A stretch of DNA of 57,288 nucleotides, from positions 1 through 57,288 of the forward strand of contig CALBWK010000060.1 of NCBI GenBank assembly GCA_937969415.1, written 5' to 3'. A model generated the notes under the pieces. The model was not told where the DNA came from and made no database searches. It was given only the letters and a program-made list of their open reading frames with translations. The position numbers and the translations under genes are program-made. This stretch comes from an uncultured Saprospiraceae bacterium. GTDB lineage: Bacteria > Bacteroidota > Bacteroidia > Chitinophagales > Saprospiraceae. This document shows, piece by piece, positions 8,453-49,807 of the stretch. The stretch's first letter is position 1; the number at the start of each line of letters is the position of its first letter.

Positions 8453-9172
8453 ATGAAGATTTCTTTAATATCAATTCGTTGCTTATTGCTTGTTTTGACG
8501 GTGGTATTCGTTGGAACCACAGCGAGTAGTCAATTCAATGTCAAGGTGGGATATAATATTGGCCTTGCTTCACCAGATATCAACAATCAGATTCTAGATA
8601 CTTTCAATCTAGCTCAGATGCTCAATTATGATGAGTACAATGAGATGCCTCCGGTGAGAGTGATGCACGGTGTTAGTTTGGGCTTGCGGCAGGGCTTTTC
8701 ATTTGGGGCAGTTACAGTAGATTGGGAGAATCTGAGCCGATCTGTAACTTCAGTAGGCATTACGCGATTGCCCTTGCCTGCGCAACCTATATCAGAGACC
8801 ATCGAACTGACCTACACCTTAAATATGCTGATGGTTGGCCTCGAGACACGTTATGGGCGACTAGGCTTGGGTAGTGCTCTAGGACGCAACTTTGTTTCTA
8901 TAACAAGAGAGACGGCCCAAGGAGAAGATTTTTCACTTCTTAGTTCTTCGCAGGGGACGACCAGTCAGAACTTTGCTAGATTCCATTTTTCGCTGAATTT
9001 TTCTGGTAGTCCGACGGTAGCTTTTGCACTCAAGCCTTTCATACAGATTCCTCTATCTAAGGTAGACCTTAGCTCTGTTGCCACCGAGTTGGGTATCAAC
9101 AAGGTAGAGACCTCAGAGAGCTTTCCTCTCATCGGCTTGTCTTTTTCATTTTATAATGGAAGACAAGACTAA
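8453..9172 (+). CDS. Outer-membrane beta-barrel protein (PorT-like size)
   Basis: A 239-residue protein with a signal peptide (about 1-26, ending TTASSQ), then alternating hydrophobic strands ending in an aromatic residue (LSFSFYNG), as in small outer-membrane barrels. The start FNVKVGYNIGLA and length recall the outer-membrane beta-barrel/PorT-like family in Bacteroidota, but no decisive motif is seen. It is divergent from the TPR/dprA run and convergent with sucA, with 34 bases between stops. Confidence 0.6.
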   Translation: MKISLISIRCLLLVLTVVFVGTTASSQFNVKVGYNIGLASPDINNQILDTFNLAQMLNYDEYNEMPPVRVMHGVSLGLRQGFSFGAVTVDWENLSRSVTSVGITRLPLPAQPISETIELTYTLNMLMVGLETRYGRLGLGSALGRNFVSITRETAQGEDFSLLSSSQGTTSQNFARFHFSLNFSGSPTVAFALKPFIQIPLSKVDLSSVATELGINKVETSESFPLIGLSFSFYNGRQD

Positions 9173-25621: not shown

Positions 25622-27373
25622 CTAAGATTGGACGAGTTGGTTGTAATAGGCATTTTCATTGACAACTTCCGAGTGGGTACCTTGATGCTCTATTCTTCCA
25701 CTTTCTAGGACTAGAACTTTGTCGAATTCTAGCTGGTTGGAAATTCTATGCGTAATAATTATGCAAGTTTTGCCCTTAAGATCAGTGTCTAAGTGCTCAA
25801 GTATCTGGTGCTCAGTATTAGCATCTAAGGCAGATAGGGAGTCATCTAATAGGATAACATCTGGGTTCTTGATGAGTGCACGAGCTAGAGAAATTCTTTG
25901 TTTTTGGCCTCCAGATAGCGTAACACCTCTCTCTCCAACTTGCGTTGCATACTGTTCTGGAAGGTCATTTATGTCCTTAGATACCGCGGCTTTTTCTGCA
26001 TAAGCCATAATCTCTGACAATTCTGAGTGAGGTGCTCCAAATTTTATATTCTCAGATATTAGATCAGAAAACAGAAATACATTCTGAGGCACATAACCTA
26101 ACTTCTGCCTAAGGGACTGAAGTTTGATAGTATTGATATTCTTTCCATCAATGAGAATTTCCCCTGAAGTGACATCATAGAATCTCAAGAGTAATTCTGC
26201 TATGGTACTCTTACCGGAAGCTGTCTTACCGACAATAATGAGCCGCTCTCCTGGCTCAACAGTAAAACTGACATTCTTTAGGGCCTCTATGCCAGTATCT
26301 GGGTAAGTAAAAGAAACATCTTTAAATTCTATTCGCCCTTTGAAGTCTTCAATGGATTCAGCCCCAGATTTTATAGTTGGCTGCGTATGCATAATCTCAT
26401 TGATCCTTGCTTGTGAGGCCTCCGCTTGCTGCACGAGAGATGCGATCCAACCTATCGAGGTAATGGGCCAAGTCAGCATATTAATATAGATGACAAACTC
26501 GGCTATGTTGCCAGTTGATATTTCTCCAGCTACTACTAATCCACCGCCTACATATATGGTGAGTAGGGTGCTCAAGCTGACAAGCAATATCATCAAAGGG
26601 AAAAAGAGCGCTTGGACTCTAGCGAGTTTGAGAGCTTTATCTTTGTAATCTATACTTTGGTCCTTAAAGAAGGTCTGGAATTCTGACTCTTTGACGTAGG
26701 ATTTAACAATTCTGATACCCGAGTAAACTTCTTGCGCAGTACTGTTGAGGGTGGATACCTGTTCCTGTATGATCGCACTCTTTTTATTAATAATCGAACT
26801 GACATAATATATCGATATCGATAAGAAGGGTAGAGGGAGGAGTGCATACCAACTCAAGGTAGCACTCACCTGAAACATAGAGTAGATAATAAATGAAAAG
26901 AGGAATACCACTCGGATACCATACATAATCGCTGGACCTAGGTACATTCTCACCTTGGATACATCAGATGATACTCTCGCCATCAGATCACCTGTTTTAT
27001 TACGCTTAAAGAAGCTCAGGTCCATCTGCTGATAATGTTCATAGATGTCTTTTCGGAGATCGTACTCGATAAGCCGTGACATAACGATGATGGTCTTCCG
27101 CATGAGATACATAAAGAACCCTGATAAGGCGTAAAAGCCTAAGACCATCGCTACATAAGTGAGAATCTCAGCACCCAGCACATCGCTAAAAGTGCCTTGC
27201 ACTTGATCTTTATCTAGATTTTGGACTTGATCATTAATGTAGTCTAAGGCATCCCTAATGGCAGGAGGTACCAGTATGCTGAAAAACACAGAAAGCCCTA
27301 CAAACAAGGTCCCTAGACCAAATCTTAATTTGTATCTGAGTAGGTACTTATTTAGAAATTTTAGATTTTTCAA
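25622..27373 (-). CDS. ABC exporter (MsbA-like, half-transporter)
   Basis: A 583-residue fusion of a six-span membrane domain (about 15-320) and an ATPase domain (about 348-583). Walker A is GKTASGKST (382-390), the signature is LSGGQ (486-490), Walker B is VILLDD (506-511) and the switch histidine lies in IITHR. The usual catalytic Glu after Walker B is Asp here (LLDDSLSALD), as in some heterodimeric exporters. The substrate is probably a lipid or drug. A -7 box lies 20 bases before the start. Confidence 0.93.
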   Translation of the reverse strand: MKNLKFLNKYLLRYKLRFGLGTLFVGLSVFFSILVPPAIRDALDYINDQVQNLDKDQVQGTFSDVLGAEILTYVAMVLGFYALSGFFMYLMRKTIIVMSRLIEYDLRKDIYEHYQQMDLSFFKRNKTGDLMARVSSDVSKVRMYLGPAIMYGIRVVFLFSFIIYSMFQVSATLSWYALLPLPFLSISIYYVSSIINKKSAIIQEQVSTLNSTAQEVYSGIRIVKSYVKESEFQTFFKDQSIDYKDKALKLARVQALFFPLMILLVSLSTLLTIYVGGGLVVAGEISTGNIAEFVIYINMLTWPITSIGWIASLVQQAEASQARINEIMHTQPTIKSGAESIEDFKGRIEFKDVSFTYPDTGIEALKNVSFTVEPGERLIIVGKTASGKSTIAELLLRFYDVTSGEILIDGKNINTIKLQSLRQKLGYVPQNVFLFSDLISENIKFGAPHSELSEIMAYAEKAAVSKDINDLPEQYATQVGERGVTLSGGQKQRISLARALIKNPDVILLDDSLSALDANTEHQILEHLDTDLKGKTCIIITHRISNQLEFDKVLVLESGRIEHQGTHSEVVNENAYYNQLVQS

Positions 27374-27443: not shown

Positions 27444-27491
27444 TTACTCTAACCTCAAATAAGGCTGTAGAGTTGTGAATAGACTATCATT
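27444..27491 (-). repeat. 48-bp copy of the comEA-like gene 3' end
   Basis: Identical to 28078-28125 at 47 of 48 positions. It reads in the minus direction as 15 codons plus stop: NDSLFTTLQPYLRLE-stop. The repeat edge coincides with the stop codon, and the similarity stops at both ends. Confidence 0.9.
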
Positions 27492-27608
27492 GATTAATTT
27501 GGGACTCTAGATGTTCAGCTCTAGGTGTTTTCACTCCATAGTTTTATAGTGAAATATTGTTATTAACGATTTGCAGATAAGCTTTTTAATTAATCCTCAA
27601 TTAGAGAT

Positions 27609-28040
27609 ATGTCAAGCGAAGCCGAACTGAATCACGCAAGACTTTTCGTTTTTGTATGCACTATTCTGCTAGATTATAAGCATATGTTTGAATCGAATAT
27701 TGATGCCATATTAGAAGAGTATACACATTTGTTAGACGACGACTATTCTTCCATTGTTTTTAGTCAATCGACATTAAGACTTTATCAGGTCTTTTTTCAA
27801 AGATTTGAAGATTATATGGATTCAAAGCCATATAGCAGAAATCTAGTGTTTATTTTTTTAGATCCCGAATGGTATGAGATAAGAGTAGATTGTCTTTTAC
27901 CTCTTATTAAATCTGCTGAAACTGATTTCAAAAATAGCAGATTTGACTATGATAGTGTTCTTGATAGTATGGACTTAAATAGAAGGCCTTCAGACAGTGA
28001 ACTGTTTAGGGAAATTGCTAAGCTCTATCTAAAATCATAG
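27609..28040 (+). CDS. Orphan hypothetical gene inside the 48-bp repeats
   Basis: A 143-residue soluble, largely helical, acidic protein without signal peptide or membrane span. It starts MSSEAELNHARLFVFV and has a central YQVFFQRFEDYMDSKP and a conserved-looking FIFLDPEWYEIRV. No family was recognised. Two sampled 60-base rows of this gene are about 30 % G+C, lower than most of the window. It is flanked by the two copies of the comEA-like 3' end and is convergent with that gene. A cargo or defence-type role is conceivable but unsupported. Confidence 0.65.
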   Translation: MSSEAELNHARLFVFVCTILLDYKHMFESNIDAILEEYTHLLDDDYSSIVFSQSTLRLYQVFFQRFEDYMDSKPYSRNLVFIFLDPEWYEIRVDCLLPLIKSAETDFKNSRFDYDSVLDSMDLNRRPSDSELFREIAKLYLKS

Positions 28041-28077
28041 AGTATCATTGTAGGAGACTTTTGGGATTTGCATGTTG

Positions 28078-28125
28078 TTACTCTAACCTCAAATAAGGCT
28101 CTAGAGTTGTGAATAGACTATCATT
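28078..28125 (-). repeat. 48-bp repeat, genuine 3' end of the comEA-like gene
   Basis: The partner of 27444-27491, with a single difference that changes Gln to Glu (NDSLFTTLEPYLRLE-stop). Confidence 0.9.
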
Positions 28126-29004
28126 CATCACCCTGATCTTTTTGATGTCTTCTACTTTTGTGTAATCTCCGTGTTGTCTTCTGTAACGGACTATTAGCTT
28201 GGCTAGGTTGTAGCTGATTAGATAATGCCTAGAAAGGCTGTCTTGCTCCCCGTTGATATTGATATAACGGAATGGAGCAGTGACATGTAGGCGCTTTTTA
28301 TTCATTAGAAAAAATGAGTCGGTTATGCCCCAGATGTCTCTGAGTTGCTCTTTGCTATGGAAACCACCCAGTTTTTCTCTTCTCTCAACGATGATCTTAG
28401 ATACGACTGGCCCAACTCCCCATAGGGACTCTAACTCTGTGGCTGAAGCAGAATTTATATTCAGGACCTTGTCAGATCGCTTTTTCTTAGGTGGATATTG
28501 GTTGACAAAAGTCTTAGTAGGAATCGGAGTTAAGGTACAATACTTGGCGATTCTCTGATAGACTGTATCGTGAAGCGTATAGATCTTAGCTAGATCTTGG
28601 CAAGATTTAAATGAACCACCCTTCTTCTGATAATTCATTATGCTTTTGATAACCCACGGCCGCACACCTAATGATAGCCATTGCAGACTATCCAATTTGT
28701 TGGGGTCAAATTCGAAATTTCTAGCTGGTGGGTATTTACTCTTGTAGGATTTTTTCTTGAAACTTTTTTTGTCGTAGGTTTTCTTTTTGAATTTTTTGGC
28801 TGCTGTTGTTATTTGCTTTCTATGCTCAATGGACTCTACAGGAATGAGTAGCTCTTCTAAAGATTGGGACTCTGTATTAATTATATGCGTAGGCTTGTAA
28901 TAAAAAGTATAAGCATAAAGGCAGACAAGAAATCCAGCTAGTAAAGCAAGAATTCTCTTGTCGCCTTTTCTCGTTTTGATATTTCTTTCCCAGTTAACTT
29001 TCAT
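28078..29004 (-). CDS. ComEA-like membrane-anchored helix-hairpin-helix protein
   Basis: A 308-residue protein with an N-terminal span (about 18-35) and a basic Lys-rich linker. Three helix-hairpin-helix-type units follow: about 105-160 (SLGVRPWVIKSIMNYQKKGG), about 180-245 (INSASATELESLWGVGPVVSKII), and a third to the C-terminus. ComEA-like proteins bind incoming double-stranded DNA in the periplasm. The start overlaps the comEC stop by four bases, so the two are translationally coupled. The last 16 codons are duplicated at 27444-27491. Confidence 0.8.
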   Translation of the reverse strand: MKVNWERNIKTRKGDKRILALLAGFLVCLYAYTFYYKPTHIINTESQSLEELLIPVESIEHRKQITTAAKKFKKKTYDKKSFKKKSYKSKYPPARNFEFDPNKLDSLQWLSLGVRPWVIKSIMNYQKKGGSFKSCQDLAKIYTLHDTVYQRIAKYCTLTPIPTKTFVNQYPPKKKRSDKVLNINSASATELESLWGVGPVVSKIIVERREKLGGFHSKEQLRDIWGITDSFFLMNKKRLHVTAPFRYININGEQDSLSRHYLISYNLAKLIVRYRRQHGDYTKVEDIKKIRVMNDSLFTTLEPYLRLE

Positions 29005-47692: not shown

Positions 47693-49807
47693 TTAGTTTG
47701 GACAAGTAATAAGATCATTATCTAATTGTCCAGCCATATTAACTGTGACTCTATAGCAGTTGCCATTAGGAGATCTAAGTATTATTCCACTGCTCGCATC
47801 ATTGATGTATACGTCTCCATCTGTTACTTCTATTTTGGCACTTGGAGTCGTTGTTCCAAATCCTACATTACCATTATCATTAACTCTGATTGCAGGATTC
47901 ATAGGATTAGTTCCATCGTGCAAGACATTCAATGTAGGTGCACCATCTTCACCGACAATCATCAGTCTAGCACCTGGTGTAGCTGTTCCGACACCTACTC
48001 TTCCATTATCATTTACTCTTATTGCAGGGTTCATTGGGTTAGTACCATCATGAAGAACATTTAGTGTAGGTGCACCATCTTCACCGACGACCATCAGTCT
48101 TGCACCCGGAGCCGCTGTTCCGACACCGACTCTTCCATTATCATTAACTCTGATTGCAGGGTTCATAGGGTTAGCTCCATCATGAAGAACATTTAGTGTA
48201 GGTGCACCATCTTCACCGACGACCATCAGTCTTGCACCCGGAGCCGTTGTTCCTACACCGACTCTTCCATCATCATTGACTCTGATTGCCGGGTTCATAG
48301 GGTTAGCACCATCATGTAGGATATTTAAAGAAGGTGCACCATCTTCACCTACGACCATCAATCTAGCACCAGGGGCAGTTGTACCTATACCAACTCTACC
48401 ATTATCGTTAACTCTAATGGCAGGATTCATAGGATTAGCTCCATCATGTAGGATATTCAAAGTAGGTGCACCATCTTGACCAACAACCATAAATCGTGCT
48501 CCAGGCATTGTTGTGCCTACGCCAACATTTCCAGTGTTATTTGAAACAATATCATTTCCACTATCTACCCAACTTCCACTGCCACCATTTACTGGTGTGG
48601 GTGTTTGCCAAGAAGCATTGCCATTGCCATCAGATGTAAGCACTGCTCCAGCTGCAGCTCCTGCAGTAACTCTTAAGGAAGTAGTCGTTAGTGTCCCATT
48701 TACTTCAAATCTTGTAGTAGGAGCAGTCGTGCCGACACCTACATTTCCGTCTTCGTTTACACGAAGGGCAGGATTCATAGGGTTAGCTCCATCATTTAAG
48801 ACATTCAATGTAGGCGCACCAGATTCTCCGACAACCATAAATCTAGCACCAGGTGTTGTTGTACCTATACCGACTCTACCATTATCATTGACTCTAAGTG
48901 CTGGGTTCATCGGACTAGCACCTGCATTTAAGATATTGAGAGCAGGAGCACCTGCATCACCTACAACCATTAGTTTGGCACCAGGTGTATTTGTGCCGAT
49001 TCCTACATTACCCGTGTTTCTTGATAAGATATTAAATCCACTATCTATCCAGTTGCTACTGCCTCCAGTAGACATAGGTACTTGCCACGTTGCATTTCCA
49101 TTGCCGTCAGATGTCAAAACGGAACCTGTGGCTGCTCCAGTTGTAACTTGTAAGCTATTAGCAGTAAGATGACCATTGACATGTAGTCTTGAGGTAGGAG
49201 AAGTCGTGCCGATGCCGACATTGCCATCTTCGTTGACTCTGATAGCAGGGTTCATCGGATTAGTGCCGTCATGCAAAATATTCATAGTAGGTGCACCAGC
49301 TTGGCCGACGACCATAAATCTTGCTCCGGGAGCAGTTGTTCCGATGCCGACTCTTCCATTGTCATTGACTCTTATGGCAGGGTTCATTGGATTAGTACCA
49401 TCATTAAGGATGTTCATAGTCGGCGCACCATCTTGGCCAACGACCATAAACCTAGCGCCTGGTGCAGTAGTGCCTATTCCTATTCTACCGTCTTCGTTAA
49501 TTCTAAATGCAGGGTTCATTGGACTAGTACCATCATTGAGGATGTTAAGTGTAGGCGCACCATCTTGTCCGATAACCATAAATCTAGCACCGGGAGTAGT
49601 TGTTCCGATGCCGACTCTACCATTGTCATTGACTCTCAGTCCTGGATTCATAGGAGTAGCTCCATTATTCAATATGTTGAGCGCTGGTGCGCCAGCGTCA
49701 CCGACGACCATAAGCTTGGCACCAGGTGTAGATGTGCCGACGCCAACATTCTGTGCTGTTGCAGTAAGTGCACAAAGGGAAATGGAAAGCAATATTATTG
49801 TCTTCAT
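47693..49807 (-). CDS. Fibre-like protein with eleven 44-residue repeats
   Basis: A 704-residue exported protein. After a signal peptide (1-20) residues 21-647 are repeats: eleven near-identical 44-residue units of the form VGIGTTTPGARFMVVG..., GAPTLNIL.DG..PMNPAIRVNDNG, and two longer divergent units (71 and 72 residues). The 57-residue cap (NVGFGTTTPSAKIEV ... GNCYRVTVN) lacks a sorting domain. VGIGTTxPxAKLxV motifs are common in Bacteroidota trimeric, tail-fibre-like proteins, so a fibre or adhesin is plausible. ATG 49807 is chosen over 49825. A CRP-like operator and -7 box precede it. Confidence 0.85.
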   Translation of the reverse strand: MKTIILLSISLCALTATAQNVGVGTSTPGAKLMVVGDAGAPALNILNNGATPMNPGLRVNDNGRVGIGTTTPGARFMVIGQDGAPTLNILNDGTSPMNPAFRINEDGRIGIGTTAPGARFMVVGQDGAPTMNILNDGTNPMNPAIRVNDNGRVGIGTTAPGARFMVVGQAGAPTMNILHDGTNPMNPAIRVNEDGNVGIGTTSPTSRLHVNGHLTANSLQVTTGAATGSVLTSDGNGNATWQVPMSTGGSSNWIDSGFNILSRNTGNVGIGTNTPGAKLMVVGDAGAPALNILNAGASPMNPALRVNDNGRVGIGTTTPGARFMVVGESGAPTLNVLNDGANPMNPALRVNEDGNVGVGTTAPTTRFEVNGTLTTTSLRVTAGAAAGAVLTSDGNGNASWQTPTPVNGGSGSWVDSGNDIVSNNTGNVGVGTTMPGARFMVVGQDGAPTLNILHDGANPMNPAIRVNDNGRVGIGTTAPGARLMVVGEDGAPSLNILHDGANPMNPAIRVNDDGRVGVGTTAPGARLMVVGEDGAPTLNVLHDGANPMNPAIRVNDNGRVGVGTAAPGARLMVVGEDGAPTLNVLHDGTNPMNPAIRVNDNGRVGVGTATPGARLMIVGEDGAPTLNVLHDGTNPMNPAIRVNDNGNVGFGTTTPSAKIEVTDGDVYINDASSGIILRSPNGNCYRVTVNMAGQLDNDLITCPN
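47867..49747 (-). repeat. Array of 132-bp tandem repeats coding 44-residue units
   Basis: Thirteen units arranged as AAAA-B-AA-B'-AAAAA, where A is 44 residues (132 bp), B is 71 and B' is 72. Counting units plus the 20-residue leader and 57-residue cap gives the full 704 residues. Several A units are almost identical at DNA level, so unit number may vary between strains. Confidence 0.9.

Follow-up and report, generated by a model that had tools for sequence, protein, structure and literature searches.

Foreign genes enclosed by long direct repeats of the sequence they entered have a described counterpart in Helicobacter pylori, in which "insertion with long target duplication" often involves restriction-modification genes (Nobusato et al. 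2000, here as cited in PMC1643837 and PMC4978471). Immunity genes that have lost their toxin partners are also known, both in Bacteroidales, as orphans and in AID/rAID clusters (PMC12247911), and in Vibrio cholerae, as the immunity arrays left by effector displacement at T6SS loci (PMC5361080). The locus described here resembles each of these in part. It shares with the H. pylori cases a foreign gene, a long direct duplication, an empty site in a sister species and the absence of a visible recombinase; it differs from them in that it concerns one putative immunity gene of a Saprospiraceae bacterium rather than restriction-modification genes, and in that its repeat stops exactly at a stop codon. 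Like the Bacteroidales genes it is a short, low-G+C immunity-type gene without a cognate toxin; unlike the AID/rAID clusters (PMC12247911) it stands alone, with no tyrosine recombinase, array, shared intergenic motifs or demonstrated T6SS link, and its host lies outside the Bacteroidales. As in the V. cholerae arrays (PMC5361080) an immunity gene appears to have been retained without its effector, but this copy lies outside any toxin locus, behind an unrelated housekeeping gene.

The window, by which we mean the whole stretch of 57,288 bp that was analysed, is contig CALBWK010000060.1 of assembly GCA_937969415.1, a draft genome (G000; 255 contigs, 3.84 Mb, 95% completeness) of an uncultured Saprospiraceae bacterium. 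The features of the locus are as follows.

25622–27373, minus strand: ABC-transporter gene, the ancestral downstream neighbour of comEA.
27444–27491, plus strand: outer 48-bp repeat copy, a duplicate of the comEA 3′ end that is now non-coding and adjoins the old downstream flank and the upstream region of the ABC gene.
27492–28077, no strand: the insert, 586 bp long with 32.4% G+C, lacking in the sister species (G001) and, at this site, in nine other genomes of the genus.
27609–28040, plus strand: putative orphan immunity gene, 143 aa, predicted all-helical, with homologues 3′ of polymorphic-toxin-like genes.
28037–28050, plus strand: 14-bp third, partial copy of the repeat edge (13/14 match), at the stop codon of the orphan gene.
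28078–28125, minus strand: inner 48-bp repeat copy, which forms the 3′ end (15 codons and the stop) of the intact comEA-like gene.
28078–29004, minus strand: comEA-like helix-hairpin-helix gene, 308 aa, intact (Pfam HHH_3, 1.9e-33).

The original prediction, made from the letters of the window, was that two nearly identical 48-bp direct repeats enclose a single AT-rich gene and that each repeats the end of the comEA-like gene. Alignment confirms this anatomy: the repeats at 27444–27491 and 28078–28125, whose starts lie 634 bp apart, are identical at 47 of 48 positions (a match reached in 0 of 100 shuffles), and position 24 is the sole mismatch. Read against the ORF at 28078–29004 on the minus strand, the repeat comprises the stop codon of the comEA-like gene and the 15 codons before it, and its left boundary coincides exactly with the final base of that stop codon. 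This gene belongs to a minus-strand run of comEC, comEA and the ABC transporter. Between the repeats there is one ORF only, at 27609–28040 on the plus strand; the G+C content of the insert (32.4%, against 39.8% for the window) falls in the bottom 1.5% among stretches of 586 bp, and the GC3 of the orphan gene is 27%, against 37–41% in neighbouring genes. No third copy of the repeat with three or fewer mismatches occurs across the 3.84-Mb genome, and a search of the genome for the unit elsewhere, a check that had been proposed with the prediction, found the insert to be single-copy. Elsewhere in the window, at 47844–49760, lies an approximately nine-copy tandem repeat with a 132-bp period (the length of 44 codons).

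The near-copy of the repeat edge inside the insert (ATAGAGTATCATTG, 13 of 14 positions, at 28037–28050) could be microhomology that guided insertion, or chance; dinucleotide shuffling of the insert gave a match of 13/14 once in 3000 trials, a frequency to be read with the knowledge that the probe was picked after the match had been seen. We also considered whether both insert ends are diverged copies of one array tail and rejected this, as similarity beyond the 14-mer is at the level of chance (p 0.49 and 0.19).

Relatives had been named as the place to look for an empty site, and the sister species G001 has one. It carries a single 48-bp copy with no trace of the insert, a search of its whole genome found no homologue of the orphan gene, and 69 bp separate its comEA stop from the start of the ABC gene, compared with 70 bp from the outer repeat copy to the ABC start in the window. 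The comEA proteins of the two are 86% identical, and their DNA is 78% identical over this part. The ABC gene directly follows comEA in ten genomes of the genus, G001 and nine more. Among relatives with readable downstream DNA none has a duplicated comEA tail (best match 27/48), and no relative among the genomes examined has the orphan gene behind comEA. Given these empty sites in the genus and the lack of duplicated comEA tails, gain is more parsimonious than repeated loss. The insertion is, on these alignments, real and recent, which bears out the reading offered in the original prediction, and the comparisons establish its polarity and the duplication of its target as well as the homology, described below, of the inserted gene to toxin-adjacent genes. 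Flanked as it is by a long repeat that is present once in the empty relative, and that derives from the target (the comEA 3′ end) and not from the insert, it is probably an instance of insertion with long target duplication.

The repeat alleles bear on the origin of the duplicated DNA. Relative to G001, three differences within the 48 bp are common to both window copies; at position 24 the outer, non-coding copy has a private G where the inner copy and G001 have C, and the inner copy is the one that stayed under coding constraint. Since both copies carry the lineage's three own alleles, the 48-bp target appears to have been duplicated from the lineage's own comEA after the split from G001, an argument for which three common differences over 48 bp are a thin basis.

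The inserted gene had been described as of no recognisable family. This held for the family libraries, where the orphan protein has no match above cut-off in Pfam, NCBIfam, PHROGs or PADLOC, but not for whole genomes, in which homologues turned up. No relatives occur in the GTDB contig collection, viral contigs, phages or plasmids, and immunity and toxin profiles found nothing over cut-off among PDB sequences. The two AlphaFold2 models are confident (pLDDT 84 for the 143-aa orphan protein and 86 for the other); Foldseek gave no PDB match for either at E ≤ 0.001, and we therefore claim no fold. Whole-genome searches found homologues of the orphan protein in G005 (same genus) and, at E 1.4e-13, in G033, which has three paralogues in tandem; a profile built solely on the immunity-type proteins of G000, G005 and G033 matched proteins of G638, G508, G781 (two) and G655. 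In G005, G033, G508, G638 and G781, five relatives at the level of the Saprospiraceae, full-length homologues lie directly 3′ of polymorphic-toxin-like genes, each starting within 15 bp of, or overlapping, the stop of a gene with a common C-terminal domain; their named records are Saprospiraceae, Phaeodactylibacter and unclassified Bacteroidota MAGs. The orphan protein is 18–29% identical to these toxin-linked homologues and 35% identical to its closest homologue, that of G655. The co-occurrence of putative toxin and immunity genes has a probability of 1.5e-9, a figure inflated by the drawing of the toxin profile from the neighbours of the immunity genes; the fair evidence for a linkage is the out-of-sample matches in G508, G638 and G781.

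The common domain of the presumptive toxins in these five genomes is 40–60% identical over the aligned parts. In G005, G508 and G781 it ends a protein of 680–720 aa with a lipoprotein-like N-terminus, and in G033 and G638 the protein that carries it is about 300 aa long. Modules of a toxin tip plus its immunity gene, tandem immunity paralogues and a small gene that diverges faster than the toxin domain are hallmarks of polymorphic toxin loci. Here the small immunity-type gene (18–35% identity to the window protein) is more diverged than the toxin domain, and G781 has a tip-only copy of the domain with its own, second immunity-type gene. The toxin domain itself has no match in the window genome, a 95% complete draft in a gap of which it could lie; the same search matched six other genomes. 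From the homologues behind toxin genes, together with the missing toxin domain, we infer that the window gene most likely serves as an orphan immunity gene and would protect against a toxin of relatives; its immunity role and the toxin role of the neighbouring genes in other genomes are both suggested by genomic association.

Several of these loci have features of their own. G781 (L084/L117:14-3836) carries a full toxin with an immunity gene, a tip-only toxin with an immunity gene and further, more degenerate toxin tips, and is a decaying module array. In G033 an exact 40-bp direct repeat (L048:7538-7577 and 9087-9126) surrounds the three-gene immunity array, and a 13-codon remnant of the array's first immunity gene begins with the downstream copy. 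G638, of the same genus as G033, has a single immunity gene and a different toxin tip, which identifies G033 as a case of effector displacement with immunity retained; comparison of the two loci thus shows the V. cholerae-type pattern directly. In G024 (L115:3458-5664) the gene downstream of a toxin of this family encodes 131 aa and was missed by the immunity profile; more than one immunity family may therefore pair with the toxin domain. Finally, the homologue in G655 (L083:1094-6678) is one of a series of small genes that follow a lipoprotein-like gene whose C-terminal end is a different one; the shared toxin domain is missing there, and the arrangement looks like an orphan immunity row.

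We propose that, after the split from the sister species, a 586-bp piece of foreign DNA with one immunity gene entered the 3′ end of comEA by illegitimate recombination, with no integrase taking part. The 48-bp duplication of the target would have arisen when a staggered break was filled in around the foreign fragment or, alternatively, when replication switched templates with a step back of 48 bp. The gene would then have been kept as an antidote, its product probably binding and blocking a toxin that relatives deliver and that this genome lacks. Taken together, these steps form a reading that we consider likely, though some way from certain; the protective function, the foreign donor and the events at the level of strands are its inferred parts. 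No donor of the insert was found among the genomes and contig collections searched, and there is thus no source sequence against which to set the junctions.

Other explanations concern either the gene or the way it arrived. The gene might be an accessory or regulatory partner of toxin loci rather than an immunity gene, as its high divergence, the lack of a fold match and the putative nature of the immunity role would allow; we think this improbable, given that the small gene abuts or overlaps the toxin stop and occurs as tandem paralogues, in tip-plus-immunity modules and in toxin-free copies. As to arrival, the original prediction raised the possibility of an integrative element lodged at the 3′ end of a gene. 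In the form in which this might still apply, a circular 634-bp unit would have been integrated by a tyrosine recombinase acting in trans, with the 48 bp as attL and attR; restoration of the gene end and the att-like length of the repeat fit such an event, and three tyrosine recombinases elsewhere in the genome, one of them (373 aa) not obviously XerC or XerD, keep it a candidate. All three are on other contigs, and the orphan gene stands alone between comEA and the ABC transporter. (The 373-aa recombinase, on contig C175 at L123:8884-10005, has an extra N-terminal region and does not lie in an obvious array.) We nevertheless hold the element to be unlikely. As the prediction itself had stated of integrases, recombinases are missing from the insert and from its immediate neighbourhood, and the one ORF of the insert does not encode a transposase; the genome has no second copy of the insert and no third of the repeat, the other comEA loci with readable downstream DNA have no duplicated tail, and phages, plasmids and viral contigs have no homologue. 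The insert ends have no terminal inverted repeats, there is no att-like hairpin, and both repeat copies carry alleles of the host lineage's own comEA, which an imported att site need not do. An integron gene cassette was also considered and rejected, as there is no attC-like hairpin and shuffled sequences fold as well as the repeat and junctions do.

The lineage encodes comEA and comEC, and homology-facilitated illegitimate recombination has been invoked for Vibrio immunity arrays (PMC5361080), so that transformation or homologous exchange might have brought the gene from a relative that already had it behind comEA, a one-sided junction duplicating the gene end. Against this, no such relative was found among the genomes examined and neither repeat copy looks like a diverged allele from a donor, which leaves the idea doubtful. 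The site might instead be ancestrally filled, with deletion between the 48-bp repeats, an event thought to lie behind part of small-segment diversity (PMC2884548), yielding exactly the empty site of G001; this would require loss in ten sampled members of the genus, and the two copies differ by one base where the same 48 bp differ from G001 by three, and we consider it extremely improbable. We give scarcely more credit to the idea of a dedicated process in Saprospiraceae that carries lone immunity genes as minimal passengers, lands them at gene 3′ ends and leaves gene-restoring repeats of 40–50 bp; if it were true, the 40-bp repeat that encloses the G033 immunity array would count as a further trace. 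Within 244 kb of the window genome no second gene-sized segment is bounded by such repeats, and we therefore claim no general process.

Illegitimate insertion with a random target duplication, the reading that we prefer, leaves one coincidence unaccounted for, namely that the repeat edge falls on the stop codon. The duplication leaves the comEA reading frame complete and preserves 118 bp of native sequence (48 + 70 bp) upstream of the ABC gene, and thus the insertion broke nothing. Inside the gene end, an insertion lacking such a duplication would have cut comEA or the region upstream of the ABC gene. From the anatomy of the site, selection for harmless insertions is possibly why the repeat spans the whole gene end, and chance may in part account for its ending exactly at the stop codon.

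Event and gene are both of known kinds, and this is a new instance of them. It is an unusually clean one, with one gene, two readable junctions, an empty sister site and repeat alleles that reveal which sequence was copied. The homologues in turn point to a putative toxin and immunity family of Saprospiraceae that is missing from the family libraries searched and from the PDB. For the organism, the locus shows a route by which a lone gene, here a putative antidote, can be gained outside toxin loci without harm to its neighbours.
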